This document shows, one piece after another, positions 45,800-62,172 of a stretch of 64,000 nt of DNA (the first letter of the stretch is position 1; each line of letters opens with the position of its first letter). Under the pieces are notes generated by a model that saw nothing but the letters and a program-made list of their open reading frames with translations, was not told the DNA's origin and made no database searches. This stretch comes from Parasedimentitalea maritima. Its GTDB lineage: Bacteria > Pseudomonadota > Alphaproteobacteria > Rhodobacterales > Rhodobacteraceae. The DNA is taken from positions 310,001 to 374,000 of the forward strand of contig NZ_VAUA01000002.1 in the NCBI RefSeq assembly GCF_005771405.1, read 5' to 3'. Position numbers and translations under genes: made by a program.

Positions 45800-48247
45800 T
45801 CACACTTGCGAAGCTCGCTCCTCGGGTCCGGATATCACAACATCAACCAGCTTTGGATATTCCCCGTCAAAATGGATCGTTTTGCCATCTTCGGTCAAAA
45901 ACCGTTCCGCAACAAAAACAGTCTGCTTGTCAAAACTTCGGTTGATTTTCAGAGGCGCGGTGAAACTGTTCCCACTGGATAAGAGCGTAACCATCATTCC
46001 TTCAAACGCATGATCCGGCCCTGGACCTGGGTTCAGCTCAACATACGGAGTTGCATCCAGGGAGGACAAAACGCCAGAGTGGGCAGTATACTGACCCGAC
46101 TGAAACAGATTATCACCAGTGATCAAGTACCGACGACAATCTTTCACATCTATATTTTCGGGCAGAATAACTGGGGCTTCCTTAGCCCCTTCACTGATTG
46201 GCCAACCACTATTCCTGGCCGCCATCCTCATATCAGCAGTATCGCCAAAGGAACCAAACCCTGGGAAGTCTGCAGCAATTGGCACGTGCAACTGATCAGA
46301 TCCAATCGGTCCTGCACCTTGCCCCAATGCTTGTGCGATCAGATTAAGTACCTGCCGTGTCGAAGGTTTGCTTTGTACCGCGTCCCGAACTGGTCGCAGA
46401 ACTTGCACTCGTCCTTCGTTATTGGTGTAGGTTCCGCTTTCCTCACCATAAGGGGTGGCTGGCAGCAACACATCCGCCTGTTCGGCGGACTTGTTGTAAT
46501 GAGACGTGTGAACGACAAGGCAGGTGCTGTGCTGTTGAGGCAACGTAGCAGGATCATCTCGGGCCCTATTCCGCAGAGGGTCACTGCCAAGAATGTAGGT
46601 CAGGTCAGGTGGATTTTTCGTAGTCTTTGGTGAGGATGGACTGCGTTGCCAACCCGGCGCAACCCCATCAAGGCAGCCCATATCCCACAGCCCCAGCTGA
46701 TTTGGACGGTCGAACAGAAACTGCAGATATACGGTTTTACCGTGCGCTTTGAAATAGTCCACCACTTGCGCAATCTTGCGAAGGCACTGTGCTGCCAGCG
46801 AGGAGCGCAGGAATTCGGTTCCGATCAAAAAGGCAATACTGTCAGCCGTTGCAACAGTCGGCTGAATTACCGAGACAAATTCTTCGATCGCGCTGTCTGC
46901 CATCTTTGGCTCGCCCTGCATGAGCAAGCCCAACAATTGCGCCTCATTTCCTGGCAGCAATCGCATCGAGGCAGCGGCCAGATCATCGAGGCCACAAGGG
47001 CGGGAGCTGGCGATAAACAGGCTCTTGTTCCCGTCCCTTACCGCTGAACGAAGCAGATAACCGGAAACTGGGTTTTCCTGAGTTATATTTGACCCCAGCA
47101 AAAAAATGCACTCAGCCTGCAAAACAGATTTAAGCGGTTTTCGATCCAGATAGCCGGTGACAACATGGCCCAGTGCTTCAATCGCACCCGCTTTTTGTAG
47201 TCCGCTAAATCGGGTGGAGGCACGAATATCCTGTGAGCCAAACACCCGCCGCATCAGGTTTTGAAACATATATGCGGTTTCGTTGCTCTCACGCGGCGAA
47301 ATATGGCCCTGAATACGGCCACCGCTTTCCATAACTACCCGTGCCTTGGTGGCAATAAACCTGATTGCTTCGTTCCAACTGACCGGGACATGGGCACCAT
47401 TTACGCGCATCATCGGCTCTCGAATACGATCGCCGCCGTCAATTGCGTCAAAGCCAAACCGCCCTTTGGCGCAGAGCAGCTCGCCGTTGATCCCAGTGTC
47501 TAAACTGCTTTTGACCCGTTTAAACTCACCGTCTCGGACCTGAGCCGTCAAACTGCATCCGGTGCCACACATGTTGCATATCGTTTCGGTTTCCACCAAA
47601 TCCCAGGGGCGTGCCTTATAGCGATACGGTACACTCATCAGGGCGCCAACCGGGCAGACTTCGATGCAATTGCCGCAATGGCTGCAGTCTTTCAGACTAT
47701 TGCCCACACCAGTAATTTCGCTATCCAGCCCGCGTTCAGCGGTCCCAAGCGCCACGTCGCCGACAACTTCCTCACATATGCGTACGCAACGCTGGCATTG
47801 GATGCAGCGATTGGCGTTGAATACGATGACTTTGTTCAGCTCAATGTCTCGCTGGCGAAACACTCGTTTGGAATCGCGCAGCCGCGAACTGCCTTTGCCG
47901 TATTCAAAAACAGTGTCCTGCAATTCACATTCACCACCTTTGTCGCAGATCGGGCAATCCAGCGGATGATTGGCCAGCAGCATTTCCAACATGTCCTCAC
48001 GGGTGGCAACAACCTTTTCCGAATGACTGTGGATCACCATGTCCGGCGCGACCGCAGTGGCGCAGGCGGGTTCTAGTTTATTGCGGCCCTCAACTTCGAC
48101 CAGGCACATTCTGCAAGAAGCCGAAATCGACAGTCGCTCCTGATAGCAAAAGGTAGGGATATTGATTGCGTGCGAGCGGGCGGCGGTCAGGATTGTGGTG
48201 CCGGGCTCAACTTCGATCTGCTGCCCATCCAGTGTGATTGTCACCAT
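45800..48247 (-). CDS. nuoG: NADH-quinone oxidoreductase subunit G
   Basis: NuoG of complex I, on the peripheral arm, carries electrons from NuoF along an Fe-S chain. The 815-residue protein has N-terminal 2Fe-2S cysteines (CRMCLVEVEG), the HxxxC cluster in HPLDCPICDKGGEC, two 4Fe-4S sites (CIQCQRCVRICEE and CSHCGNCIEVCP), and a molybdopterin-oxidoreductase-like domain with the N7-type cluster (CNMCGTGC and later LLCAKG). The ATG at 48247 is used rather than the TTG just upstream. It is the last gene of the operon and would end the peripheral arm set. Confidence 0.93.
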   Translation of the reverse strand: MVTITLDGQQIEVEPGTTILTAARSHAINIPTFCYQERLSISASCRMCLVEVEGRNKLEPACATAVAPDMVIHSHSEKVVATREDMLEMLLANHPLDCPICDKGGECELQDTVFEYGKGSSRLRDSKRVFRQRDIELNKVIVFNANRCIQCQRCVRICEEVVGDVALGTAERGLDSEITGVGNSLKDCSHCGNCIEVCPVGALMSVPYRYKARPWDLVETETICNMCGTGCSLTAQVRDGEFKRVKSSLDTGINGELLCAKGRFGFDAIDGGDRIREPMMRVNGAHVPVSWNEAIRFIATKARVVMESGGRIQGHISPRESNETAYMFQNLMRRVFGSQDIRASTRFSGLQKAGAIEALGHVVTGYLDRKPLKSVLQAECIFLLGSNITQENPVSGYLLRSAVRDGNKSLFIASSRPCGLDDLAAASMRLLPGNEAQLLGLLMQGEPKMADSAIEEFVSVIQPTVATADSIAFLIGTEFLRSSLAAQCLRKIAQVVDYFKAHGKTVYLQFLFDRPNQLGLWDMGCLDGVAPGWQRSPSSPKTTKNPPDLTYILGSDPLRNRARDDPATLPQQHSTCLVVHTSHYNKSAEQADVLLPATPYGEESGTYTNNEGRVQVLRPVRDAVQSKPSTRQVLNLIAQALGQGAGPIGSDQLHVPIAADFPGFGSFGDTADMRMAARNSGWPISEGAKEAPVILPENIDVKDCRRYLITGDNLFQSGQYTAHSGVLSSLDATPYVELNPGPGPDHAFEGMMVTLLSSGNSFTAPLKINRSFDKQTVFVAERFLTEDGKTIHFDGEYPKLVDVVISGPEERASQV

Positions 48248-48262
48248 CAATCTGCCCTTTCG

Positions 48263-49522
48263 TCAGCTCACCATCGTTTGCGGCGCGATCAACGCATCGA
48301 ATTCATGCCTAAAATGTTTGATCGTTGCGCCCAGCGCCCAGGCCGCACCATCACCGAGTGCGCAGAAGGACTTACCAAAAATGCCACCGCAGAGCATTTC
48401 AAGCTGTTCAACATCCCCAACCTGCCCCTGACCGGCCTCTATCCGGCGCAGGATCTTGGCGGCCCAGGTTAGCCCTTCACGGCAGGGGGTGCATTTGCCA
48501 CAGCTTTCATGATTGAAAAATTCGGTGATACGCCGCGCAACCACCGGGATCGACGCCGTTTCATCCAACCCAATCACCGCTGCCGACCCCAACATGCTGC
48601 CTGCTGCGGCCAGCGATCCGAAGTCCATTTTTACGTCAAACAAATCACTTGGGAACATGGGGGCCGAGACCCCACCAGGGATGGCTGCCTTAAATGCCCC
48701 GTTCAAGGCTCCCCCACCGTATTCCTCGAGCATCTCGCCCAAGGGCATCCCCATCGGCAACTCATACAGCCCGGGTTTTCGAACATGGCCGCTAAGGCCG
48801 AATAGCTTTGGACCCGGAGCATCTTTGGGTCCAATTGAGGAGAACCAGTCTTCTCCACGACGAAACAGATGTGGTAGGCACGCCAGTGTTTCGACGTTAT
48901 TGACGACTGTCGGGCATTCATACAGCCCAGCAACTGCTGGAAAGGGCGGTTTTAACTTTGGTTGGCCGCGTTTGCCTTCGATAGATTCCAGCAGTGCCGT
49001 TTCTTCACCACAGATGTATGCGCCCGCACCTTTGTGGATATGGATGTCCAAAGAATGACCACTATTCAGAATGTTCTGCCCCAAATACCCCAGCGCATGG
49101 GCTTCATCGATGGCCTGTTGGCAATGCTCAATCGACACATCGTATTCGCCACGAATATATAGGTATGCCGTCTTGCACCCGATGGCGTAGGCCGCAATCA
49201 CCATGCCTTCGATCAGCTGATGTGGATCGCGCTCCATCAGGATCCGATCCTTGAATGTGCCCGGCTCTCCTTCATCGGCATTGCAACACAAATAGCGTGG
49301 CAAGGGGTTATCCTTAGGGACAAAGCTCCATTTCAAACCGGTTGGAAACCCGGCCCCGCCGCGGCCGCGCAGGTTTGAAGATTTCACAGTTTCGATCACC
49401 TGATCCGGATCGTAGTCGCGTAACACTGTACGCAGCCCTTGATAGCCGCCGGATTTTTCGTAGGTCTCAATTCTGGACGCGTCTGGATTGTCGATGTTTT
49501 TCAGCAGCATAAGTTCACTCAT
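48263..49522 (-). CDS. nuoF: NADH-quinone oxidoreductase subunit F
   Basis: NuoF binds FMN and NADH and holds the first Fe-S cluster. The 419-residue protein shows the FMN/NADH motif GRGGAGFPTGLKW, the segment NADEGEPGTFKDR, and the cluster motif ESCGKCTPCREG. Length is normal. It overlaps nuoE by four bases. Confidence 0.95.
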   Translation of the reverse strand: MSELMLLKNIDNPDASRIETYEKSGGYQGLRTVLRDYDPDQVIETVKSSNLRGRGGAGFPTGLKWSFVPKDNPLPRYLCCNADEGEPGTFKDRILMERDPHQLIEGMVIAAYAIGCKTAYLYIRGEYDVSIEHCQQAIDEAHALGYLGQNILNSGHSLDIHIHKGAGAYICGEETALLESIEGKRGQPKLKPPFPAVAGLYECPTVVNNVETLACLPHLFRRGEDWFSSIGPKDAPGPKLFGLSGHVRKPGLYELPMGMPLGEMLEEYGGGALNGAFKAAIPGGVSAPMFPSDLFDVKMDFGSLAAAGSMLGSAAVIGLDETASIPVVARRITEFFNHESCGKCTPCREGLTWAAKILRRIEAGQGQVGDVEQLEMLCGGIFGKSFCALGDGAAWALGATIKHFRHEFDALIAPQTMVS

Positions 49523-50031
49523 GTTGCCTCCTTGGCGGGCCGACCTGCAAGGGAGGCAAGAAGGCCATCCAGTTTGTCCGTGGTCAGATCGCCGTGATAG
49601 CGGGCGTCGACCATAAGAGCTGGCGCCATTTCACAAGCTCCGAGGCATTCAACGGCGGTAAGCGTAAAGGATCCATCCGACGTTGTCTCACCAGATTTAA
49701 TGGCTAGCCGGTCTTGCAGGTGCTGCATCAGCGCATCCGAACCACGCAACATGCAGGACAGGTTTGTACAAAGGCGCAAGTGGTGGAGACCAGTCTGCGC
49801 CCGGTCAAAAAGGCTATAGAAACTGGCAACCTCAAACACCCAGATTTCAGGCACGTCCAGCAGTTCAGACACGGCCTGATACGTAAGGCCCTCTAGCTGC
49901 CCATATTTCTGCTGTGCCAGCTCAAGGGCGGGCATTATGGCGCTGCGGCTTGTTGGATAACGCGTCCTCATCTGCCGCACCCCAGTTGCGAGGTCGCGCT
50001 TGATATCGGTCAGGCTGCGGGCATCGCTCAT
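49519..50031 (-). CDS. nuoE: NADH-quinone oxidoreductase subunit E
   Basis: NuoE, the 24-kDa subunit with a 2Fe-2S cluster. The 170-residue protein has the ligand pairs CTNLSC and VECLGACEMAP, typical of NuoE. It is a stand-alone form with no C-terminal extension. It overlaps both neighbours by four bases (ATGA). Confidence 0.95.
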   Translation of the reverse strand: MSDARSLTDIKRDLATGVRQMRTRYPTSRSAIMPALELAQQKYGQLEGLTYQAVSELLDVPEIWVFEVASFYSLFDRAQTGLHHLRLCTNLSCMLRGSDALMQHLQDRLAIKSGETTSDGSFTLTAVECLGACEMAPALMVDARYHGDLTTDKLDGLLASLAGRPAKEAT

Positions 50032-51245
50032 TTGTCGACCTCCCCCATCACCGGATCCAGACTACCCAGCATGGCAATTACATCTGCCAAGTATTTAATA
50101 TTGGTGGTGCGCTCTGTCAGGGCCTGAAGATTAACAAAAGACGGTGCCCGCACCTTAAGCCTGAACGGCTTTTCGCTACCGTCTGAAATCAAGTAATATC
50201 CCAACTCTCCCTTAGGGGCCTCGATCGCTGTATAGACTTCGCCTTTTGGCACCTTGAACCCATAGGCGGCCAATTCAAAGTGATGGATATGGGTCTCCAT
50301 CGAATGCGCGAGCAAATCCTTATCTACCGGAAAGGCGATTTTGGGGTCATCAATCAGTATGTCACCTTCAGGCATTTGGCGCACACATTGGCGGATCATT
50401 CGCAGGCTTTCGCGCATCTCATCGACGCGGCATTTCCAGCGGTCATAGCAATCGCCATCGTCTCGGGTGATGACCTCAAACTCCAGCTGATCGTAAATCT
50501 CGTATGGTTCATCACGGCGGATGTCCCAGTCCACCCCAGACGCGCGCAGGTTTGGACCGCTAAGGCCCAGCGCGATGGCATCTTCGCCAGTGATGTTTCC
50601 AATGTTTTCAACCCGGGCCAGAAAGATGCGATTGTTGTCCAGCAGGGTTTCGTAGTCTGATATTCGCGCTGCAAAGATATCGCAGAACTCCAGTATGCGT
50701 GCGGCGCAACCTTCGGGCAGATCCTCACGTACGCCACCAACCCGACAGAACGAGGTATGCATCCGCACGCCACTGATCATCTCCATCAGATCCATCACCA
50801 TTTCACGGTCGCGCATAGTGTAGAGCAGCGAAGTCATTGCCCCTACATCCATCGGCAGCGCACCGGTGATCAGCAAATGGCCAGAGATCCGCGACAACTC
50901 GGCCATGATCACTCTGATATATTGTGCCCGCTCAGGTGCTTTGATGCCCAGCAAGGCTTCAACCGCTAAGGCATAGCCCAGATTGTTGGAGGGCGGACAA
51001 AGGTAGTCAAGCCGGTCCGTCAGCGGGAAAATCTGCGTGTAGGTAAAGCTTTCGAACAGTTTTTCAGTACCGCGGTGCAGCAAACCAATATGCGGTTCCA
51101 CCCGCTCGATGATTTCGCCATCCATCTGCAGCAGCAAACGCAATACGCCATGGGTACTTGGATGCTGAGGACCAAGGTTCATCAATACCTCACGCGACAG
51201 GCCGGTGTCGGTTGTGACCTCATTGATGACAGTAACGTCGGTCAT
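50028..51245 (-). CDS. nuoD: NADH-quinone oxidoreductase subunit D
   Basis: NuoD, the 49-kDa subunit, forms the quinone pocket with NuoB. The 405-residue protein shows MNLGPQHPSTHGVLRLLLQM, PHIGLLHRGTEKLFE and the LFELAAYG-like late segment FELAAYGFKVPKGEVYTA. NuoC and NuoD are separate genes, not fused. It overlaps nuoC by four bases. Confidence 0.95.
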   Translation of the reverse strand: MTDVTVINEVTTDTGLSREVLMNLGPQHPSTHGVLRLLLQMDGEIIERVEPHIGLLHRGTEKLFESFTYTQIFPLTDRLDYLCPPSNNLGYALAVEALLGIKAPERAQYIRVIMAELSRISGHLLITGALPMDVGAMTSLLYTMRDREMVMDLMEMISGVRMHTSFCRVGGVREDLPEGCAARILEFCDIFAARISDYETLLDNNRIFLARVENIGNITGEDAIALGLSGPNLRASGVDWDIRRDEPYEIYDQLEFEVITRDDGDCYDRWKCRVDEMRESLRMIRQCVRQMPEGDILIDDPKIAFPVDKDLLAHSMETHIHHFELAAYGFKVPKGEVYTAIEAPKGELGYYLISDGSEKPFRLKVRAPSFVNLQALTERTTNIKYLADVIAMLGSLDPVMGEVDK

Positions 51246-51754
51246 CCGCTGCCCCAGTCAACAGGTTGGTCTACGCCCATGGGGTTATAGTCATCTTTGT
51301 ATCCACGCAGCGGAAAATCGCGACGCATTGGATAGCCGTCAAACCCATCCCACATGTAAATTCGGCGTAAATCAGGGTGACCATCGAACTTGATACCATA
51401 CATGTCAAAGGCTTCACGCTCGTGCCAGTTGGCGGTGGTCCAAACCGGCGTGACAGTGGGCGCAACTGCAGGATCGCCCAAGTAGCACTTTAGCCGAAGG
51501 CGCCACTTATGCCGGATCGAAAATAAGTGGTAGACCAATAAGAAACGCGGTGCCTCGGGGTGAAAATCCACCGCGCAGATATCTGAGAGAAAATCAAAAT
51601 TTAGCAAGGGGTCGTCGCGCAAGTGACGACACAGCTCAACCAGGTCATCAGGGGGCACCTTCAGGCAGGACATGTCCGCCGCCGTATTGTCGATGCCAAC
51701 CCGTTGCTCATAGAGCTGCAAAACCGGGGCAAGAGAGAGCTCGGTTGGGGCCAT
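51242..51754 (-). CDS. nuoC: NADH-quinone oxidoreductase subunit C
   Basis: NuoC, the 30-kDa subunit of the quinone-side connecting part. The 170-residue protein has DPLLNFDFLSDICAVDF and the C-terminal signature REAFDMYGIKFDGHPDLRRI followed by the PMRRDFPLRGYKDD segment. It starts within the nuoB stop (ATGA). Confidence 0.93.
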   Translation of the reverse strand: MAPTELSLAPVLQLYEQRVGIDNTAADMSCLKVPPDDLVELCRHLRDDPLLNFDFLSDICAVDFHPEAPRFLLVYHLFSIRHKWRLRLKCYLGDPAVAPTVTPVWTTANWHEREAFDMYGIKFDGHPDLRRIYMWDGFDGYPMRRDFPLRGYKDDYNPMGVDQPVDWGSG

Positions 51755-52263
51755 CAGGACAGTCCCAGCACGGCATCGGCAGGGTCTTGACGACGCAGCA
51801 CCTTGGTACCTGTGATCTGTTCCTGCAATTGCACAAACCCATGTAACAACGCCTCTGGGCGCGGTGGGCAGCCGGCAACGTGGATATCAACCGGTATAAT
51901 ATGGTCTACCCCCTGCACCACGGCATAGGTATTATAGACCCCGCCGGAAATAGCACATGTTCCCATGGCAATGACATATCGCGGCTCAGCCATTTGATCA
52001 TACAGGCGGCGCACAATTGGTGCCATCTTTCGGGTCACTGTTCCGGCGACGATCATCACATCCGACTGGCGCGGCGACGGCCGGAACACCACACCGAACC
52101 TGTCCAGATCGTAGCGCGCACACCCAGCCGAAATCATCTCAATCGCGCAGCAGGCAATACCAAAAGTCTGAGGCCAAAGTGAAGATTTACGACTCCAGTT
52201 AATGATCGCATCTGACGAGGTGAAAAAGACGTTGTCCTGAAAACGGTTTGTCAGGAGACCCAT
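51754..52263 (-). CDS. nuoB: NADH-quinone oxidoreductase subunit B
   Basis: NuoB carries the N2 4Fe-4S cluster next to the quinone site. The 169-residue protein shows [29 protein letters not shown], and the ligands in [13 protein letters not shown] and [13 protein letters not shown] use the ATG at 52263 because GGAG lies seven bases upstream. It overlaps nuoA by 13 bases. Confidence 0.95.
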
Positions 52264-52613
52264 TCCAACGCTCCTTTGATCCAAGCATAGGCAAAGCCAA
52301 CCAACAGAAGAACGATGAATACAAACATCTCGACATAGCCAAACAGTCCCATGTCCTTCAGCACCACCGCCCAGGGGAACAGGAACATGGTCTCGACATC
52401 AAAGACTACAAACAGGATGGCGATGACAAAATACTGCACTTTGAACATTCCGGCAGAGGCCTCACCCACATGGTCAACACCGCATTCGTAGGGGCGGTTC
52501 TTCTCGGGATAAGGATTGTGGGGCCGGATCAAGCGGGACAGTGTCAGAATAAATACCGATAGCACGATGACCACAGCCACCATCAGGAATACTGGCAGAA
52601 AATCAATTGGCAT
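52251..52613 (-). CDS. nuoA: NADH-quinone oxidoreductase subunit A
   Basis: NuoA is a three-helix membrane subunit next to NuoH. The 120-residue protein has the typical loop [17 protein letters not shown] and helices with [17 protein letters not shown]. The ATG at 52613 has AAGGAAGG upstream. It is the first gene after a 107-base break following nuoN, where the peripheral arm part of the cluster begins. Confidence 0.93.
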
Positions 52614-52720: not shown

Positions 52721-54172
52721 TCAACCTAGTCCAGCAGTTGCCGCAGCTTTTGACACCCCCAGAAACCAGGCAGGCAAGACCCCGGTTAAGACTGTACCGA
52801 TGAATGTGACAATCAGTGCCCATCCAATTGCAGGGGAGACCTGAAATACAGCCGGTTGATCATTTTTTTCCATGTACATCAGCATGATGACACGAAGGTA
52901 GAACCACGCAGCTATCGCGCTGAACAGCACCGCAAGTACTGCCAGCAATACAAAACCCGCATCAACCAATGCCACCAACACATAAAACTTGGCGAAGAAG
53001 CCCCCAGTCGGCGGTATGCCTGCGAGTGACAAGAGGAACACCAAAGCCATTAAGGCCACCCCTGGGTGGCTTTTGGCCAGGCCAGAGAAGTCTTGAATTT
53101 TCTCACCCTGACCTGCGCCTCGGTTTATAAGGACGATCACAGCAAATAGTCCCAAATTGGTCACTGTAAAAATCAGCAGATACAGCATCACACTGGCAAG
53201 GCCCTCGCTTCCTCCGGCCAAGAGGCCCAGCAACAAGAACCCGCCATGAGCAATTGAAGAATAGGCCAACATCCGCTTGATATTGGTTTGCACAAGCGCA
53301 GCAAAGCTGCCCACGGCGAGCGACAGTACCGCCATGACTTCAACGCTACTGCGCCAGATTGGGTCAAGCATTGCCAGGTCTTGCACCAGCAGACGCAGGA
53401 TCACCGCAACGGCGGCAACCTTGCCCACTGTCGACATGAAACCGGTGACAGGTGATGGCGCACCCTCGTAGATATCGGGGACCCACATATGAAACGGGAC
53501 TGCACCAACTTTGAACAATAGCCCTACAATCAAAAACAATGTGGACAGCGCCAGTAGTGGCGAACTGGTGTCCACCTTATCCAACGCCTCTCCCATAACA
53601 TCCAATTGGGTGGTACCGGTCAGCCCATAAAACAGCGACAGGCCAAAGAGAAACAGCCCCGAAGAGAACGCCCCGAGGATGACATACTTTAATGCGGCCT
53701 CATTCGAACGCGTGTTTGTCGTCAGAAATCCAACCAGTACATAAATCGACAACGCCTGCAGTTCTAACCCGACATAGATGATCAGCAGGTCTGTGCCCGA
53801 CACCATGATCATCGCACCTGACAGGGCAAATAACAGCAGCACATAGTACTCACCTTTGGCGGCATCTTCCGTGCCCAGGTATCGGTCAGAAATGAGAATT
53901 GTCAGCGCAGTTCCCAGATAGAGCAACATTTTGAAAAAGGTTGAAAAACCATCGTTCACAAACATTCCGCCATAAGCCGATTGTGGATTTTGCGCCAATG
54001 TCAGGCTCATCGCGGCGGCGAGGCCAATCATCACCAGGCTAAGCCCCGCCAGCAATGCACCCTGCCCCGGTCTTGGCACCAGCGACAACATCAATGCCAC
54101 ACAAGCGCCCAGAATGATGATGATTTCCGGGCCTGAGGCCAGGACCGAAGAGGTGATCTGCGTCAGATCCAT
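52721..54172 (-). CDS. nuoN: NADH-quinone oxidoreductase subunit N
   Basis: NuoN is an antiporter-like, proton-translocating membrane subunit closest to the quinone end. The 483-residue protein has about fourteen helices with the key residues YVGLELQALSIYVLVGF (helix 5 Glu) and LLFKVGAVPFHMWVPDIYEG (helix 7 Lys). The ATG at 54172 has GGAGG upstream. It lies 10 bases after nuoM. Confidence 0.93.
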   Translation of the reverse strand: MDLTQITSSVLASGPEIIIILGACVALMLSLVPRPGQGALLAGLSLVMIGLAAAMSLTLAQNPQSAYGGMFVNDGFSTFFKMLLYLGTALTILISDRYLGTEDAAKGEYYVLLLFALSGAMIMVSGTDLLIIYVGLELQALSIYVLVGFLTTNTRSNEAALKYVILGAFSSGLFLFGLSLFYGLTGTTQLDVMGEALDKVDTSSPLLALSTLFLIVGLLFKVGAVPFHMWVPDIYEGAPSPVTGFMSTVGKVAAVAVILRLLVQDLAMLDPIWRSSVEVMAVLSLAVGSFAALVQTNIKRMLAYSSIAHGGFLLLGLLAGGSEGLASVMLYLLIFTVTNLGLFAVIVLINRGAGQGEKIQDFSGLAKSHPGVALMALVFLLSLAGIPPTGGFFAKFYVLVALVDAGFVLLAVLAVLFSAIAAWFYLRVIMLMYMEKNDQPAVFQVSPAIGWALIVTFIGTVLTGVLPAWFLGVSKAAATAGLG

Positions 54173-54182
54173 TGCGGCCTCC

Positions 54183-55661
54183 TCATGGGAGCACCGCCGT
54201 CGGATTAAGCTGTGACATCAGATGGTCCAGCGAGGGTTGCAGGATTGTCAAAAATGGCTTGGGATACAGGCCAAACCACACAACAAACAAAAGCAAAGGT
54301 GCTGCACAGGCCAGTTCGCGGCGGCCCAGATCCCAGATAAACACGTCCCCCGGCGTCTTCACCTCACCCAGCAACATCTGGCGATACACCCCCAAAAGGT
54401 AGGCTGCACCAACCAAGGCGCCCAGCACCCCGGCAGCCCCGGCCCAACCGCTGACCCCAAAAGCCGCAGCCAACACCAGTAGCTCACCAATAAATCCGTT
54501 CAGTCCGGGTAGTGCCATCGAGGCCAGCAAAAAGGCCGCAAACAGGATACCAAACAACGGCACCACCTTAATCAATCCACCGTAAGCTGCGATGTCTCGT
54601 GAATGTGTGCGCTCGTAGATTATACCAACGAACAAGAACAGCGCCCCGGTGGTGATACCGTGGTTGAACATCTGGATCACTGCACCTGACATGCCGTTGG
54701 CATCAAATGTAAATAGACCCAGGGTGATGAACCCCATGTGACTGACACTGGAATAGGCGATCAGTTTCTTAATGTCGCTCTGCGCCAAGGCAAGAAAGCC
54801 GCCATAGACAATAGCTACGGCGGACAGGGCAATCATCATCGGGGCGAAATACTGCGAGGCGTCCGGCAGCATTGGCAGTGAAAAACGCAGAAAGCCATAG
54901 GCGCCCATCTTGAGCAGCACACCGGCAAGAATGATACTGCCCGCAGTGGGGGCCTGCACATGGGCATCCGGCAACCAAGTATGCACCGGCACCATCGGAA
55001 TCTTGACGGCAAAGGCGACAAGGAAGGCAAGGAACACCCAAATTTGTAGGGGGAACGGGTATTGTACCTCCATCAGGGCCAGCACATCAAAGGTTTGCCC
55101 GCCACCGAAGTAAAGCAGCAGGATACCAATCAGGAACAGCAGGCTTCCTGCTAACGTGTAGAGGAAGAACTTGAACGCGGCGTAGACACGCTTGGCTCCG
55201 CCCCAGATACCGATGATCAGATACATCGGCACCAGCATGGCCTCCCACAGAATGTAGAACAGGATCATGTCTAGCGCGCAGAACACACCGATCATCAGGC
55301 TTTGCATCGCCAGTAAGCAGGTCATGAACTCTTTCACCCGGGTGGAAATCGACCACCAAGACGCCAAAACGCAAATCCATCCCAGCAGACTGGTCAGCAC
55401 CACAAACCAAACGCTGATACCATCAATCCCCAATCGATAGCTGATACCCAAAGACGGCACCCAAACCCTGTGTTCACCAAACTGCATCGCAGCCGTGTTG
55501 GGATCAAAATTGAGCAAAACCCAAAGCGCTAACAAGAAGTCAGCAAACAGCACCAGCAAAGAAAACCAGCGTACAATCGGGTCTTTGCGCAGAAAGGGTG
55601 TTAGCACTGCCCCAACAGCCGGTAGCAAAATCAGAATGCTGAGAACCGGCAAGTCTGTCAT
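54183..55661 (-). CDS. nuoM: NADH-quinone oxidoreductase subunit M
   Basis: NuoM, a proton-translocating antiporter-like subunit. The 492-residue protein shows the helix 5 Glu in YILWEAMLVPMYLIIG, the helix 7 Lys in AFAVKIPMVPVHTWLPDAH and LLKMGAYGFLRF. The start at 55661 overlaps the preceding subunit by ATGA. This one is a canonical NuoM. Confidence 0.93.
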   Translation of the reverse strand: MTDLPVLSILILLPAVGAVLTPFLRKDPIVRWFSLLVLFADFLLALWVLLNFDPNTAAMQFGEHRVWVPSLGISYRLGIDGISVWFVVLTSLLGWICVLASWWSISTRVKEFMTCLLAMQSLMIGVFCALDMILFYILWEAMLVPMYLIIGIWGGAKRVYAAFKFFLYTLAGSLLFLIGILLLYFGGGQTFDVLALMEVQYPFPLQIWVFLAFLVAFAVKIPMVPVHTWLPDAHVQAPTAGSIILAGVLLKMGAYGFLRFSLPMLPDASQYFAPMMIALSAVAIVYGGFLALAQSDIKKLIAYSSVSHMGFITLGLFTFDANGMSGAVIQMFNHGITTGALFLFVGIIYERTHSRDIAAYGGLIKVVPLFGILFAAFLLASMALPGLNGFIGELLVLAAAFGVSGWAGAAGVLGALVGAAYLLGVYRQMLLGEVKTPGDVFIWDLGRRELACAAPLLLFVVWFGLYPKPFLTILQPSLDHLMSQLNPTAVLP

Positions 55662-57430
55662 GGCGCTGCCAGTGCTGCGATCAGCGGGAACACCAGCATC
55701 ACAATCAGCCCAACTATCATCACCAGCGCATAATGCGACACGACCCCGGTTTGAAACTGGCGCAACAGCAGGCCGCAACGCCAGGCCATTCTGGCAACCC
55801 CATTGACCGCAGCATCAACTAAGTGGGTGTCAACTTTTTGGCTCGCCCGTGACAACCTGTGCAACATGCGAAGACCTGCACCGTCACCCAGAGTAACCAC
55901 CATTTTCTCCCAGAGTAAAACCGGATGGTGGGCAAACCACATGAAGAGCGTTGCGCCACGCCGATACAGCCAATCGGTGTCCAAACTGATGGTTTTCTCG
56001 GGGTCCAGATACCTCAGACACAGAACAAAGGCTAACAGTGTGAACATCAGCAATCCCAGGCTCTGGGTTATGTGCGCGCCGCTGTAAGGGTGGTAATCCA
56101 CCGGATAAGGCAGCAGATCGTACAACAGCTGCGGAAACACGCCAATGCCAATGCAGAACAGCGCCGCCAGCCCCATTGCCAATAACATATTCACGGGCGG
56201 TTCAGACGGGCGCAAGCCGCAGTCTTTGCCAAAGAACATGTAATACGGCAGCTTTAGGCCAGTGTGCAAAAAGGTACCGGAGGACGCGACGGTCAATAAT
56301 AGGGTCACTGCCGCACGGTGATCCCCTGCGGCCGCCGATATGATCATGCTTTTGCTGACAAAGCCGCTGAACAGTGGAAAGGCCGAGATTGCCAACGCGC
56401 CAATCATATACAGCACCACCGTCATTGGCATAGTTCGGTACAAACCTCCCAGCTCGGTAAGCTTGCGCCGCCCCGTCGTCAGGATCACCGCCCCCACCCC
56501 CATGAACAACAATCCCTTGTAGAGGATATGGGCAAAGGCATGGGAGGCCGCGCCATTCAGCGCCATCTCGGTTCCCATGCCAACGGCAGCAACCATGTAA
56601 CCAACCTGACTGATAATGTGATAACCCAAAAGCCTGCGGCAGTCGTTTTCCAGCACCGCAAATACAACCCCGTATAGCGCCATGGCCACACCAAACCCGA
56701 TCAGCACCTCGGCACCTGGGTAATTGCGGATCAGCACGTATACGGCCGTTTTAGTGGTAAAGGCGCTAAGGAATACCGCTCCGGTCACCGTCGCTTCGGG
56801 ATATGCATCGGTGAGCCAGGCGCTTAATGGTGGCACAGCTGCATTCAACATGAAGGAAATCAGGATCAGGTTATAGGCCAGCCCGCCCTGTCCATGATCC
56901 AGCGGCCCCACCAGATAAGAGCCGGTCTGGACGCCGTGCAACACAATGCCACCGAACAACAGGACTCCTCCGGCGACATGCACCATGAGATAGCGGAAAC
57001 CGGCTGCGACAGCCTTGCGGTTGGCGGATGCAAAAATCAGATAGGCCGAGGCAAAGGCCATGACCTCCCATGCGACAAGTAGGGTGAACCAATCGCCAGC
57101 AAACACGACGCCAAAAGCACTGCCAATATACAAAAACGCCGAGACCCGTTGGCCAGTGTCATTGATATGCCAAGCGTAAATGTTGCCAATCACCGCCATG
57201 ATTGAAAACACCCAAGCGAACACCAGTGATAGCTTGTCAGCCTGAAACAGAACCAACTCTACGCCAATAAATTGGACCTGACCCTGGCTGCCGACGTCCA
57301 TTTGCAACATCCGTAGCAAAACCAGAAAAGGAACCAAAACCGACACGGTCTTTTGTCCTGTGTCGTGCAGCATCGGCAGCAAGGCTGCACCGAACACCAT
57401 GATCAATGCGGGGTGCAGCCACTCAGTCAT
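55658..57430 (-). CDS. MrpD-type antiporter-like subunit with NuoL-like C-terminus
   Basis: A 590-residue proton-antiporter membrane subunit. The core resembles MrpD/HyfB-type proteins (DAYPEATVTGAVFLSAFTTK, ASHAFAHILYKGLLFMGVGA, AISAFPLFSGFVSKSMI). The C-terminal part, DTHLVDAAVNGVARMAWRCG then QTGVVSHYALVMIVGLIVML, resembles the lateral helix and last membrane segment of NuoL. It may take the NuoL place. The helix-7 lysine is Asn here (LNAAVPPLSAWL). No separate classic nuoL was found in the operon. The start at 57430 overlaps the 84-residue gene. Confidence 0.8.
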   Translation of the reverse strand: MTEWLHPALIMVFGAALLPMLHDTGQKTVSVLVPFLVLLRMLQMDVGSQGQVQFIGVELVLFQADKLSLVFAWVFSIMAVIGNIYAWHINDTGQRVSAFLYIGSAFGVVFAGDWFTLLVAWEVMAFASAYLIFASANRKAVAAGFRYLMVHVAGGVLLFGGIVLHGVQTGSYLVGPLDHGQGGLAYNLILISFMLNAAVPPLSAWLTDAYPEATVTGAVFLSAFTTKTAVYVLIRNYPGAEVLIGFGVAMALYGVVFAVLENDCRRLLGYHIISQVGYMVAAVGMGTEMALNGAASHAFAHILYKGLLFMGVGAVILTTGRRKLTELGGLYRTMPMTVVLYMIGALAISAFPLFSGFVSKSMIISAAAGDHRAAVTLLLTVASSGTFLHTGLKLPYYMFFGKDCGLRPSEPPVNMLLAMGLAALFCIGIGVFPQLLYDLLPYPVDYHPYSGAHITQSLGLLMFTLLAFVLCLRYLDPEKTISLDTDWLYRRGATLFMWFAHHPVLLWEKMVVTLGDGAGLRMLHRLSRASQKVDTHLVDAAVNGVARMAWRCGLLLRQFQTGVVSHYALVMIVGLIVMLVFPLIAALAAP

Positions 57431-57677
57431 AGTAGTCCTCATCGCGCATGATGCCGCAACTGTGGCCGATGAACTTGCTGATAAAAATGATCGCAACGCA
57501 GCTGATAAATCCAAACGCGGCGCTCCACCCGGGGATGGCATCCCAGACATGTTCCACATGTGGTCTTGGCACTAAGACGTCGGCCAGCACTATGAGGAAC
57601 AGCACCAGCAGCAATAACCGCCACCGCAAACGCTTGTATCGATCATCGCCAAAGAAATTCACCAATCGTGCAATCAT
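57423..57677 (-). CDS. small conserved membrane protein of the nuo operon
   Basis: An 84-residue protein with two predicted membrane segments (about residues 17-36 and 51-70) and a charged C-terminus MRDEDYYD. The middle RPHVEHVWDAIPGWSAAFGF lies outside the membrane. It overlaps both antiporter-like neighbours. I recall similar small proteins in other expanded complex I or Mrp clusters, but no function is known. It is a candidate accessory or assembly subunit. Confidence 0.75.
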   Translation of the reverse strand: MIARLVNFFGDDRYKRLRWRLLLLVLFLIVLADVLVPRPHVEHVWDAIPGWSAAFGFISCVAIIFISKFIGHSCGIMRDEDYYD

Positions 57678-59170
57678 CCTAACCCCGCTCCGCGCATGAC
57701 CAACTGCGCCAACTCCACGAAAAATCCAGGGTTCAGACCCAGCGCCAATGATAAAATCGCAGTTATCAGCAAAGGCACCGCCACCATTGGAACTTCACGG
57801 ACGTCCTGCATTGCGACCAGCGTTTGGTCCTGTGGTGGCTTGGATTTCTCAAAAAATGCGGTGTAGGTCACCGGTAAGAAATAGGCCGCATTCAGCACCG
57901 CGCTGGCCAGAAGAACAGTCAGAAAAACCAATTCTCCAGCTTCAACCGAGCCCAGAACCAGATACCATTTACTAATGAACCCTCCACTGGGGGGGAGGCC
58001 GATCATACCAAGTGAGCCAATGAAAAACGCGCCCATCGTCCAGGGCAATTGCCGCCCGATGCCGGCCAGATCGCTGATGTTACGACGATGTGAGGCGCAG
58101 TAGATCGACCCGGCACAGAAAAACAGTGTGATCTTGGAAAATGCGTGTGCCGCGATATGGGTCACACCGCCCACGGCCGCCATCGGTGTCAACAAGACCG
58201 CGCCCAGTATGATGTACGATAGCTGACTGACCGTCGAATAAGCCAGCCGAGCCTTCAGGTCATCGCGGGTCAACGCATAGATCGAAGCCATCACAATGGT
58301 AAAAGACACCAGATATGCAGTGGCTATTGCCAACCCGAGGCTGCTCATCAAATCGACGCCCATGACGTAGAAAATCACCCGCAGCAGGCAGAATACCCCC
58401 ATTTTGACCACCGCCACTGCATGGAGCAGAGCACTAACAGGGGTTGGCGCAACCATCGCCGCTGGCAGCCAGGCGTGAAATGGCATAATTGCAGCCTTGG
58501 CAAAACCAAACAGGTAGCACAGGTACACCACTGACAGCAGCGCCCCTGAGGCATCAGTTCCGCCAAACACTCCCTGAGGCATAAAATCAAGTGTTCCGGC
58601 CAGATGATAGGTCAGCGCCAGTGCCGCCAGAAGCAGGGATTTGGACGCTCCTATCAAATAGACCACATAGCGACGACTGCCCGCCCAACTGGCACTGTCT
58701 TCTTTGTGGTAAACCAGCGGATAGGTGATCAGGCTAAGCAGCTCGTAAAAAATGACCAAAGTGAACAGATTAGCGGCAAAGGCACCGCCAACTGCCGCCG
58801 AAAGCGACACCGCAAAGGCGGCAAAAAAGCGGGTCTGCGCGTATTCGTTCTGGCTGCGCATATAACCAATTGAGTAAAGCGCCGCGAGGATCCACAGCAG
58901 GCTGGAAACGGTCGCAAACACCATCCCCAATGCATCGACCCGAAAGGCAAAATCGACCCCCGGCAGCACCTCGAACAATGTTAAATCATGGGTACCACCG
59001 TCCAAAACCAGTGGCGCCAGAGAGATCACGATCAGGAATTTCACTACAGCCGCGGCAACCGAAACTGCATCACGCAGGTTAGCCCGGTTGCGCAGACAAA
59101 GGATCAAAACAGCGGCCGTCAGGCTTACGGCAATGGCAAGGACAGGTCTGATGGACAGTAGAAATTCCAA
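57674..59170 (-). CDS. fourth antiporter-like (MrpD/HyfB-type) subunit of complex I
   Basis: A 498-residue proton-antiporter membrane subunit with about fourteen helices. Key charged residues are present: helix 5 Glu in IFYELLSLITYPLVYH, helix 7 Lys in FGFAKAAIMPFHAWLP and a further Lys in AVVKMGVFCLLR. It is an extra pumping-type subunit in addition to N, M and the 590-residue protein. It begins at TTG (59170) three bases after the nuoK stop; no ATG or GTG lies near. It overlaps the 84-residue gene. Confidence 0.85.
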   Translation of the reverse strand: MEFLLSIRPVLAIAVSLTAAVLILCLRNRANLRDAVSVAAAVVKFLIVISLAPLVLDGGTHDLTLFEVLPGVDFAFRVDALGMVFATVSSLLWILAALYSIGYMRSQNEYAQTRFFAAFAVSLSAAVGGAFAANLFTLVIFYELLSLITYPLVYHKEDSASWAGSRRYVVYLIGASKSLLLAALALTYHLAGTLDFMPQGVFGGTDASGALLSVVYLCYLFGFAKAAIMPFHAWLPAAMVAPTPVSALLHAVAVVKMGVFCLLRVIFYVMGVDLMSSLGLAIATAYLVSFTIVMASIYALTRDDLKARLAYSTVSQLSYIILGAVLLTPMAAVGGVTHIAAHAFSKITLFFCAGSIYCASHRRNISDLAGIGRQLPWTMGAFFIGSLGMIGLPPSGGFISKWYLVLGSVEAGELVFLTVLLASAVLNAAYFLPVTYTAFFEKSKPPQDQTLVAMQDVREVPMVAVPLLITAILSLALGLNPGFFVELAQLVMRGAGLG

Positions 59171-59173
59171 AAC

Positions 59174-59476
59174 TCAACCTTTCAAGACGGTTAACTCATC
59201 CACTTCCAACGTGTTCTTGTTGCGCAGCAGTGCAACCAAAATGCCCAGGGCCACAGCAACCTCGGCAGCGGTGATTGCGATCACAAAAATGGCGATTATC
59301 TGGCCGCGCAAATCTTGCAGAACATGGCCAAAAGCCAGAAGGTTTATGGTGACACTGTTCAGCATGAGTTCCAGTGACATCAGTACAATCAGTACATTGC
59401 GCCGCAGCAAAACCCCGGCTCCGCCAATAACAAACAGCGTGGCGGCAAGTATCAGATACCAGGCTGTTGGGATCAT
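59174..59476 (-). CDS. nuoK: NADH-quinone oxidoreductase subunit K
   Basis: NuoK is a three-helix membrane subunit with conserved glutamates in the proton channel. The 100-residue protein shows [17 protein letters not shown] and [16 protein letters not shown], the two essential Glu regions. It overlaps nuoJ by four bases. Confidence 0.95.
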
Positions 59477-60024
59477 CTGCGAACCTCGCCGTGATTTTTT
59501 CGAGATCGAACAGGTGTTACGTCAGCCTCCGACCTGGCCAACACCACCGCACCGATCAAGGCCACCAGAAGGATTACCGAGGCAACTTCAAACGGCAGCA
59601 GGAAATCCTGAAACAGTAAAAGACTAAGCTCCTCCACTGATGGCTGAGTGGTAATCGTCTGCCCCGGCCCCATTGCGGCATGCAATTTGGTGCTCTGGGT
59701 CAGTAAGACAATCAGTTCGCCCGAGAGGATAACAAGAACGACGACACCGGGCAGAAGCGCGTGTTTCAAGTACCTCCTTTTGGATTCCTTTCGGACATCC
59801 AGCATCATAATGACGAATAAAAACAGCACCATCACGGCGCCGACATATACAAAGATTTGGATCACGGCCAGGAAGGGCGCACCCAAAAGGACGTAAAGGG
59901 CAGCGATTTGAACCAGGCAGGCGACAAGTGCCAAGGCGCTATGTACCGGATTGCGTGCGACAATCACCAGCAGCGCCGATGCAGTTGCAACTCCCGACAA
60001 CAGCAAAAAAAACTCTCGCTCCAT
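59473..60024 (-). CDS. nuoJ: NADH-quinone oxidoreductase subunit J
   Basis: NuoJ is a five-helix membrane subunit. The 183-residue protein shows [20 protein letters not shown] and [20 protein letters not shown], the NuoJ signature with the flexible helix 3. The start at 60024 has AGAGG upstream. A 61-base gap separates it from the CBS gene. Confidence 0.93.
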
Positions 60025-60085
60025 CTTTGACCTCTTATTCCTAACTCCCGTTTCTCCAACCACAAACAGGCTGATCATCTCTGCA

Positions 60086-60529
60086 TCAAACGCTGTAGCC
60101 AGTGCCGTCGATGTACTTCAGCAGCTCTTCTTCTTCGCGCATGATTTCATCCAGCCGATGTTTGACCACATCGCCAATACTGATCACCCCACACAGCCCG
60201 TCGTCATCACAAACCAGCATGTGGCGATTCCGCTTTTCGGTCATTAAAGCCATGATCCGGATCAGGTTGTCGTCTGGTGAACAGGTGCCCACGTTGGGTG
60301 TCATCACCTCGCGGATCGCGGCTTGGCGCCCTCCACCATCCGGGATCGCCATTGCTTTGCAGATCTCGCGCTCTGAAACGCCTCCCAACGCTTTTCCGGC
60401 AGGATCCAGTACCACCGCAAAACCAATCTTCTTGGCGTCAAACAACTGAAGGGCCGTCAAGACGCTGTCGTCTGGCGCGACCGAAAAGGTCTCGGATCCT
60501 TTGTGGCGTAATACTGTGCTGACATACAT
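60086..60529 (-). CDS. CBS-domain pair protein within the nuo operon
   Basis: A 147-residue cytosolic protein made of two CBS domains: ETFSVAPDDSVLTALQLF, KIGFAVVLDPAGKALGGVSE, then VGTCSPDDNLIRIMALMTEK and RHMLVCDDDGLCGVISIGDV. CBS pairs bind adenylates (AMP, ATP) or NAD(H) and act as energy sensors. It lies between nuoI and nuoJ, which is unusual; a link between nucleotide state and complex I is inferred. The ATG at 60529 is used; a more distant start at 60559 is possible. Confidence 0.8.
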   Translation of the reverse strand: MYVSTVLRHKGSETFSVAPDDSVLTALQLFDAKKIGFAVVLDPAGKALGGVSEREICKAMAIPDGGGRQAAIREVMTPNVGTCSPDDNLIRIMALMTEKRNRHMLVCDDDGLCGVISIGDVVKHRLDEIMREEEELLKYIDGTGYSV

Positions 60530-60589
60530 TTTTTTCGCCCTTTCTTGGTTTGATCCCACTGCGGTAGTGGCGCCGCCTTCATATATTGG

Positions 60590-61168
60590 TTACCGCTCTC
60601 TTCGGATACGCGACCACCAATCCAGCCCGGCATCCTTGGGGCCAGTTTGAGTGACTGACCTCAGACCACTGTTGCGATCCAGTTTCGCGGGGCGCACCAC
60701 GCCCCCATTCCCAGCTTTTCCAGGTGCCTTGACCAGATCTTCGAGATGGACCACCAGGGTTCCTCGATGGTGGGTCGCAACTTCGTATTCCTGACCTAAC
60801 TTGATCGCATCCGCAGGACAGGCATCCTCACACAACCCGCAATACAGACAGCGTGCCAAATTGATGTCGAACACTTTGGGGCGGCGGTCGCCCTTTTCAT
60901 TCTCAAAGGGAATAACAGTGATGCAATCGCAGGGGCAGATTTGCGAGCACAATTCACAGGCGACACAATTCACCTCACCCTCATCATTTGTCTTGATGAA
61001 ATGATGGCCGCGATGGCGTTGATATGGCACCCACTTTTCATAATCTGGGTAGTGGTGGGTCACAGTTTTTGAAACCATATACCCCAGCGTCAAACGTAAC
61101 CCGGCCAGTAGATCAACCAGAAGGACCCTGCCGATCCAGTTGCTCCGTTTTACCCCTGTCCTTGCCAT
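60590..61168 (-). CDS. nuoI: NADH-quinone oxidoreductase subunit I
   Basis: NuoI carries two 4Fe-4S clusters linking NuoG to NuoB. The 192-residue protein has CVACELCSQICPCDC and CLYCGLCEDACPADA. The N-terminus forms the usual amphipathic region, and the C-terminal tail of about 40 residues is longer than in minimal NuoI. It lies 17 bases after nuoH. Confidence 0.95.
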   Translation of the reverse strand: MARTGVKRSNWIGRVLLVDLLAGLRLTLGYMVSKTVTHHYPDYEKWVPYQRHRGHHFIKTNDEGEVNCVACELCSQICPCDCITVIPFENEKGDRRPKVFDINLARCLYCGLCEDACPADAIKLGQEYEVATHHRGTLVVHLEDLVKAPGKAGNGGVVRPAKLDRNSGLRSVTQTGPKDAGLDWWSRIRRER

Positions 61169-61185
61169 GACGACTCACTCGCTAT

Positions 61186-62172
61186 TCACAACATCACATA
61201 TCCGCTCACCAGAATATTCAGCAATGAGAGCGGTAGTAGTAACTTCCAGCCGATGGTCATCAGCTGATCATAACGGTAGCGCGGAAACGTGAAACGCAAC
61301 CACATAAACACCCAGATGAAGAATCCGACCTTCAAAAGCAGCCAGAACGTGGCGGGCAAAAATGCCGGACCACCCAGCCAACCGCCAAAAAACAGCAGCA
61401 CGTTCAGAAAAGCCAGAACCACCACAACAAGGTACTCTGCAAGCATAAAGAGCGAAAATCGAATGCCACTGTATTCCGTGTGGTAGCCTGCGCCGAGATC
61501 ACCCTCGGCTTCGGGCAGATCAAACGGAATACGTTGTGCCTCGGCCAGACCTGAAACAAAAAAAACAAAAAAACCAATTGGCTGCACCACAACATTCCAC
61601 AAACCTTGCTGCGAGGACACAATTTGGGACAGCTGCATCGATCCCGCGAGCATCACCACGCCTATGACGGAAAAACCCATAGGGATCTCGTAGGAAATCA
61701 TCTGAGCAATAGAACGCAAACTGCCAAGAACTGCGTATTTACTGTTCGAGGCCCAACCCGCCAAAATTGTGCCAAACACTCCTATTCCCGACACTGCCAG
61801 AATAAACAGCAATCCAACGTTCAGATCTGATATCGACAACGCAATTTCGGTGCCAAACATCTGAATGGGGTCGCCAATAGGGATTGCAACAAAGACCAGA
61901 AAGGGCGGCACCAGTGCCACCACCGGGGCGATCGAAAACAGCATCCGGTCAGCCTCGGCTGGGATATGATCTTCTTTGGTCAGCAGTTTGATGGCATCGG
62001 CCAGCGGTTGCAGTAACCCGTGCCACCCCACGCGCATCGGACCTGGTCGCTGCTGGATATGTGCAGCTATTTTACGCTCCAGCCAAGTCAAAGGGAGTGG
62101 CAGCAATAAAAGAACGCCTACGACAATAGCCATTTTAATTAACACAGGCACTAGGCTAAGGACGTTTTCCAT
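61186..62172 (-). CDS. nuoH: NADH-quinone oxidoreductase subunit H
   Basis: NuoH is the eight-helix quinone-pocket membrane subunit. The 328-residue protein shows ERKIAAHIQQRPGPMRVG, LLQPLADAIKLLTKEDHIP and PFDLPEAEGDLGAGYHTEYS, the conserved charged loop. It is the first gene of the operon as seen here. The promoter must lie in the 207 bases between it and the histidine kinase gene; none was clear. Confidence 0.95.
   Translation of the reverse strand: MENVLSLVPVLIKMAIVVGVLLLLPLPLTWLERKIAAHIQQRPGPMRVGWHGLLQPLADAIKLLTKEDHIPAEADRMLFSIAPVVALVPPFLVFVAIPIGDPIQMFGTEIALSISDLNVGLLFILAVSGIGVFGTILAGWASNSKYAVLGSLRSIAQMISYEIPMGFSVIGVVMLAGSMQLSQIVSSQQGLWNVVVQPIGFFVFFVSGLAEAQRIPFDLPEAEGDLGAGYHTEYSGIRFSLFMLAEYLVVVVLAFLNVLLFFGGWLGGPAFLPATFWLLLKVGFFIWVFMWLRFTFPRYRYDQLMTIGWKLLLPLSLLNILVSGYVML

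Follow-up and report, generated by a model that had tools for sequence, protein, structure and literature searches.

A complex-I-embedded antiporter-like subunit with asparagine in place of the helix-7 lysine and a conserved helix-6 histidine

Introduction

Can a complex I be closed by an antiporter-like subunit that has an asparagine at the position of the helix-7 lysine, and what would such a subunit do? This question is raised by a stretch of 64,000 nucleotides from the alphaproteobacterium Parasedimentitalea maritima (contig NZ_VAUA01000002.1, positions 310,001 to 374,000; hereafter the window), which encodes a 590-residue antiporter-like protein, P590, within a complex I operon. Its immediate neighbors are a second antiporter-like subunit of 498 residues (D498) and an 84-residue protein (sp84). 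In models of complex I, the pair formed by the helix-5 Glu and the helix-7 Lys switches in every antiporter subunit, and in some of these models the terminal subunit is the exit for every proton. A natural complex I that is widespread, lacks the terminal helix-7 Lys and keeps its exit-side residues could discriminate between models of proton pumping, and it is also relevant to the published expectation of one more proton for each additional antiporter subunit. The close family of P590 therefore offers a natural test of complex I proton pumping.

The helix-7 position in P590 and its relatives

The reading frame of P590 is uninterrupted over its 590 residues on the minus strand, and plus-strand frame 1 across the same interval (55658-57430) contains many stops. 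Residue 196, encoded by AAT, is Asn. The helix-7 column was located by an ungapped count from the terminal Trp of helix 7 (W205 in P590), and N196 also stands opposite the helix-7 Lys in all four PDB alignments shown (7d3u_A, 6u8y_X, 6cfw_H and 7qru_D). In a comparison of 370 antiporter-like proteins, P590 relatives included, this column is Lys in 265 of the 267 proteins of other classes, namely in NuoL (22/22), MrpA (9/9), D498 (79/79), NuoN (59/59), MrpD-type (20/20) and NuoM (76/78) proteins. The two NuoM-type proteins with Leu at this position (L142 and L146) come from one Desulfoferrobacter genome and represent another natural loss.

Within the same set Asn is found in all 65 complex-I-type P590 proteins, and the Mrp-type ones have 25 Lys, 10 Asn, 1 Arg and 1 Ser, plus one unplaced Asn. 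Of 162 P590 relatives in a wider set, 83 have an adjoining NuoM gene, and these carry Asn in 80 cases, Cys in two and Thr in one. The label 'mrp' in this wider set merely means that there is no NuoM in a flank of roughly 1.5 kb; the Ser-bearing L222 was so labelled, yet it turned out to lie in a complex I operon (L244) once more sequence was seen, hence 84 of 84 complex-I relatives are without the helix-7 Lys. The counts leave out fragments shorter than 500 residues (first relative set), near-identical or contained sequences (162-relative set), and L104 and L105. Wider sequence was available for 74 loci, where the 46 Lys-types fall into Mrp operons (35) or an unclear context (11) and none into complex I; the nine complex I loci among the 74 include no Lys, and the 52 Mrp-type loci include 35 Lys and 15 Asn. 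Judged by these alignments, Asn (rarely Cys, Thr or Ser) is a family trait of complex-I-embedded P590.

A displaced Lys was sought in a 23-residue segment up to and including W205, and 55 of the 65 complex-I-type relatives have no Lys, Arg or His there; the other 10 have a single His, two residues ahead of W205. P590 retains E122, K227, K305 and K360, and conservation among the 83 complex-I-context relatives is nearly complete (K360 in 83, E122 and K227 in 82 each, K305 in 81). One member of this group, L226 (L243), combines E122Q, Thr196, K227N and K305M. The first-pass annotation had proposed that the helix-7 Lys is Asn while the helix-5 Glu and other lysines remain; the codon, the ungapped column count and the PDB alignments bear out the former, and the four retained residues the latter. 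It had also considered a structurally equivalent Lys lost to misalignment, which the search up to W205 did not find in complex-I-type relatives, and it had left open whether Asn is normal in the subfamily, which the 80 Asn, 2 Cys and 1 Thr among 83, plus the 1 Ser, answer positively. It further named invariance of Asn in a known active subfamily as a refutation of an unusual site: Asn proves invariant or almost invariant, and no activity assay of this subunit was found.

A histidine in helix 6

The missing Lys is accompanied by His151 in helix 6. This His is present in all 83 complex-I-context relatives; among the 162 relatives, all 108 Asn-types and five of the six others have it, and the 48 Lys-types show Gln in 39 cases, His in 7 and Lys in 2. 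None of the 267 proteins of other classes has His in this column, although the D498 rows have a nearby indel that makes their register less sure. Four residues past it, column 155 is Asp in 22 of 22 NuoL proteins, and in NuoL Lys229 and Asp178 form an ion pair (PMC13144422). Because His151 stands four residues before the column of Asp178, the partner of Lys229, it would lie near helix 7, about one helical turn from the position equivalent to the Lys contact. As far as the aligned relatives indicate, His151 is constrained where the Lys is absent and free where it is present.

How often the two residues changed together was addressed by phylogeny. A FastTree analysis that included the trait columns had suggested a repeated, independent change of Lys to Asn, and this idea was dropped after a mixture-model tree without those columns (80 rows), in which the Lys-types form one clade of 26 rows (support 100/99) inside the Asn-types. 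On this tree the complex I context changes four times. The nested position of the Lys clade makes the Asn/His state look ancestral in the P590 family, with Lys regained once. As the Lys/polar difference amounts to one change, the link between His and Asn has no independent replicate, and the Asn/His pattern is well backed by conservation but poorly by independent co-variation. Columns 201, 253 and 254 were also considered as co-varying with helix 7; they were linked to it in the first set, but the linkage was broken in the larger one, where the 108 Asn-types have Pro201 in 96, Tyr253 in 95 and Gly254 in 93 cases, so these columns follow lineage.

Family placement of P590

P590 matches NF009310 (PRK12668, 'Na(+)/H(+) antiporter subunit D') over residues 1-581 with 739.6 bits (cut-off 564), and the NuoL profile TIGR01974 aligns to residues 61-581 with 130.2 bits, below its cut-off of 407.5. 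Among proteins of known structure, MrpA, MBS, MBH and MrpD subunits come first by sequence, and matches of the predicted fold to MrpD (7qru_D, Z 43.1 over 437 residues, 2.2 A) and to NuoL (8e9g_L, Z 42.5 over 510 residues, 3.2 A) amount to a tie. In trees built from the core only (residues 1-445, tail removed), P590 groups with NuoL and MrpA, with an ultrafast bootstrap of 100 (LG+F+G4) and a FastTree support of 0.80 for 98 proteins, and with 84/72 under a mixture model for 61 proteins, where the P590 clade itself receives 100/100. Under the mixture model the grouping with NuoL and MrpA rather than MrpD is favoured, though not decisively. These trees indicate that P590 is a class of its own, which is probably of the NuoL/MrpA type. 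The first-pass annotation had described an MrpD-like core joined to a NuoL-like tail. The MrpD label fits as far as the NF009310 match goes (740 bits), yet the trees put the core nearer NuoL/MrpA, and the notion of an MrpD/NuoL chimera was abandoned on the same grounds. Its NuoL-like lateral helix and terminal segment did hold, as TIGR01974 extends to residue 581, albeit below cut-off, and AlphaFold2 predicts helices at 486-560 and 564-587; an arm-end position is likely, given this lateral helix and the tree.

The pLDDT of the block with the two predicted helices is merely 51-68, and the length of the lateral helix was counted between the DWLY-type motif and the Tyr preceding the last helix. 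Complex-I-type P590 proteins have 81-83 residues in 80 of 83 cases and 108-110 in the remaining three, and NuoL has 53-58 in 18 of 22 and 82-83 in 4 of 22, which places P590 about 25 residues above most NuoLs. Three of the four long NuoLs (L141, L143, L144 and L145) lie in operons with a single L, M and N, and the operon of the fourth is truncated at the end of its contig. The three P590 proteins with 108-110 residues are L084, L100 and L223, and a repeated VDGxVNG-type segment is visible in L084 and L100. The operons of these two, as seen, contain no fifth antiporter gene; a solitary additional D498-like gene (L163) is present elsewhere in the L100 genome, and the L084 genome has none. Tails of 114-134 residues occur in Mrp-type operons of Nitrospirota that contain three antiporter-like genes. 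Insertions of 26 residues have been tied to extra antiporter subunits, yet they are present in canonical clusters too (PMC9040806, section 10). Lateral-helix length as a count of antiporters was rejected as a rule by the four long canonical NuoLs, the Nitrospirota tails, and L084, L100 and L223.

Mechanistic interpretation

The reading favoured here, with modest confidence, is that P590 serves as the terminal NuoL-equivalent of a green-type complex I, with an altered proton input, perhaps via His151, and an intact exit half. D498, which has the full residue set, would be an added complete antiporter and P590 would close the arm, a terminal role suggested by its NuoL-like lateral helix and its tree placement. 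The broken helix 7 belongs to the cytoplasmic input side (PMC11496545), and this side would be rebuilt in P590, where the positive Lys that partners the helix-5 Glu is gone. The titratable His151 may stand in for it, as the most plausible substitute for the lost base. K227, K305 and K360, the lysines of helices 8, 10 and 12, are kept, so that the lateral and exit side would be standard. P590 would probably still conduct protons, with another charge and pKa at the input switch. That its proton path may differ, as the first-pass annotation supposed, is in keeping with a Lys replaced by Asn among otherwise retained key residues. That annotation gave no strand for P590 and made no mention of the adjacent D498, of sp84 or of His151.

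Several points weigh against this reading. The proximity of His151 to the Lys-contacting position rests on alignment, seven Lys-types also have His151, and Lys versus polar is a single change on the mixture tree without trait columns. L226 is possibly a terminal subunit in decay. Canonical NuoLs with 82-83 residues mean that length alone is no proof of a fourth arm subunit, so the lateral-helix argument for such a subunit is weak and gene content the better evidence. Furthermore, the K229A mutation of E. coli NuoL reportedly lowers complex I activity severely (Nakamaru-Ogiso 2010, cited in PMC4938563), hence a natural Asn could also mean an inactive site.

In the main rival explanation, P590 might be an inactive terminal cap whose lateral helix straps the arm, so that D498, NuoM and NuoN together with the E-channel would pump four protons per NADH and not five. 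The whole complex-I group has lost the charged half of the Glu-Lys switch, the pair is essential in Nqo13/ND4, the transverse helix has been described as purely structural (PMC9802314), and L226 has lost further residues; an idle cap, however, should drift more than is observed, since E122, K227, K305 and K360 are kept in 81-83 of 83 relatives and His151 in all of them. This explanation is considered rather unlikely. It is less probable still that P590 pumps normally, with Asn and water replacing the Lys and His151 being structural or unrelated. It has been argued that water networks can take over from the Lys of helix 8 and from the linking His residues (PMC9802314), and NuoL K229A was almost without effect in a B. 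subtilis mrpA complementation (PMC4938563), but in Paracoccus ND4 the pair of helix-5 Glu and helix-7 Lys is essential, the helix-8 Lys being less so (PMC9802314), and normal pumping would leave the fixed His151 unexplained.

A role in a cation/proton exchange module for Na+ or K+, with Asn/His as part of the cation site, would agree with the name of NF009310 and with the relatives in Mrp-type operons that contain MrpB, C and E/F-like genes; as Mrp-type loci hold both types (35 Lys and 15 Asn of 52), Asn would be no mark of ion exchange, and this role appears improbable. That Asn196 reflects a sequencing error, a pseudogene or a misalignment is hardly credible: no evidence for any of the three was found, the frame is open, the same residue occurs in 96%-identical and in distant relatives, and the four PDB alignments agree. 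The favoured reading can be extended to a terminal antiporter of green complex I with an input site switched to helix-6 His plus helix-7 Asn and with sp84 at the D498-P590 junction, a full combination that is proposed only tentatively. If it is true, this four-antiporter complex I would consist of three standard modules and one with a different charge logic, and a fifth proton need not follow.

The operon, sp84 and their distribution

P590 is the eighth of 17 minus-strand genes in the order nuoH, nuoI, CBS, nuoJ, nuoK, D498, sp84, P590, nuoM, nuoN and nuoA-G (Table 1). The cluster contains no canonical nuoL, and D498, sp84 and P590 occupy the place between nuoK and nuoM; the remaining subunits (A-K, M and N) are all present. 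Frames overlap at D498/sp84 (57674-57677), sp84/P590 (57423-57430) and P590/nuoM (55658-55661). A further L/M/N set, this one canonical, and an Mrp pair lie elsewhere in the genome, where NF009310 matches number nine in all. The gene of the CBS-domain protein is found nearby in 23 of 66 relatives' loci and also in the rhizobial operon, and nucleotide sensing by the complex is possible.

Table 1. Features of the complex I operon in the window.
Feature	Window position	Strand	Basis
nuoA, nuoB, nuoC, nuoD, nuoE, nuoF, nuoG (redox and quinone modules)	45800..52613	-	ORFs, synteny, names in rhizobial operon
nuoN	52721..54172	-	TIGR01770, 473 bits
nuoM	54183..55661	-	TIGR01972, 618 bits
P590, putative terminal NuoL-equivalent antiporter-like subunit, 590 aa (NF009310/PRK12668)	55658..57430	-	Frame, profile, fold matches
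Lateral helix region of P590, residues 486-567 (82 residues, DWLY motif to Tyr before last helix)	55730..55975	-	AlphaFold2 and length comparison
Asn196 codon AAT, helix-7 Lys position	56843..56845	-	Codon read and column comparison
His151 codon CAT, helix 6	56978..56980	-	Codon read and column comparison
sp84, 84 aa, two predicted membrane helices	57423..57677	-	Overlaps D498 stop and P590 start
D498, 498-aa antiporter-like subunit (NF006236), helix-7 Lys present	57674..59170	-	767 bits, cut-off 663
nuoK	59174..59476	-	Profile search
nuoJ	59473..60078	-	Profile search
CBS-domain protein, 157 aa, within operon	60086..60559	-	PF00571
nuoI	60590..61168	-	ORF, syntenic homologs
nuoH	61186..62172	-	ORF, syntenic homologs

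In an alignment of 38 sp84 homologs Gly55, Lys67, Glu79 and Tyr82 are invariant (numbering without Met1). With E values up to 1 allowed, any given Pfam or NCBIfam family matches at most 5 of the 38, always weakly (one single-member match reaches 0.0003), and no PDB chain matches sp84 at E up to 10. The AlphaFold2 model (without Met1, pLDDT 81) has two long helices, 11-34 and 50-72. Since sp84 also stands beside D498 and P590 in Mrp-type operons, the three genes travel as a unit. Some Mrp-type operons, resembling L107, have no MrpA gene in view and read E/F, F, B, B, C, D1, D498, sp84, P590, followed in some by a CoxG-like gene.

A scan of genome contigs gave 67 loci in alpha-, beta-, gamma- and deltaproteobacteria, Nitrospirota, Acidobacteria, Planctomycetota and Nitrospinae; among the 66 with P590, many of them cut by contig ends, NuoM is seen in 63, sp84 in 62 and D498 in 61. 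In sampled genomes the P590 family is above cut-off in 63 of 289 of the class, 20 of 349 of the phylum, 14 of 149 of the phylum of G305 and 25 of 148 of the phylum of G307. Moreover, P590 is found on 99 plasmids from Sinorhizobium, Rhizobium, Ensifer and their relatives, and the sp84 search likewise returned 99 records, the two lists agreeing when compared by genus counts. The nearest named locus, in Zongyanglinia huanghaiensis, is 96% identical. Canonical NuoL is absent from 8 of the 25 genomes with this operon, and two of those eight, Moritella sp. JT01 (G291) and G300, have no PF00361 proteins beyond the four of this operon, so the operon is likely to be the working complex I of both.

Comparison with known systems

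A literature search for loss of the helix-7 Lys in the P590 class found none, and the main text of PMC9040806, the paper closest to the subject, does not contain the word 'lysine'. The Lys loss throughout the class, the helix-6 His and sp84 appear to be undescribed in the literature searched, which did not cover the founding 2016 and 2018 papers.

The subunit shares with NuoL/ND5 and MrpA the terminal position proposed for it, the lateral helix, the core clade, E122, K305 and K360. It differs from them by lacking the helix-7 Lys and the helix-8 His, the latter being found in 0 of 65 P590 proteins, compared with 21 of 21 NuoL and 9 of 9 MrpA. Where NuoL has the helix-7 Lys, the helix-8 His and the helix-6 Arg175 and Asp178, P590 has Asn, Leu/Met, Val and Gly, respectively, and it also has a NuoM-like helix-8 Lys.

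At the level of the complex, Nitrospira 2M complex I likewise has a fourth antiporter-like subunit and a longer lateral helix, but that complex retains NuoL and has a second NuoM as its extra subunit (Chadwick 2018, cited in PMC9040806). In Complex_I_3 of Candidatus Manganitrophaceae, MrpD1 and MrpD2 stand in place of NuoL and MrpD2 has a C-terminal amphipathic helix; this complex differs in that its antiporter-like subunits number five and its MrpD2 contains an additional helix insertion of 26 residues (PMC9040806, section 10). The counterpart of the operon in the window is the green complex I of rhizobia (PMC9040806, section 10; PMC7415380), whose expression is reportedly raised in symbiosis (PMC7415380). 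Two antiporter-like subunits replace NuoL there, as in the window. On plasmid pT173d of Ensifer canadensis the genes read J-K-D-hypothetical-D-M-N-A-B-C-D-E-F-G, an order identical to that of the window from J to G, with sp84 annotated as 'hypothetical protein'; H, I and CBS are on the other strand, whereas in the window they precede J on the same strand. The P590 of pT173d also has the Asn (LNAAVPPL) and the His (RYLMVH). By gene order and subunit sequence, the locus of P. maritima is a further member of this known complex type, green complex I.

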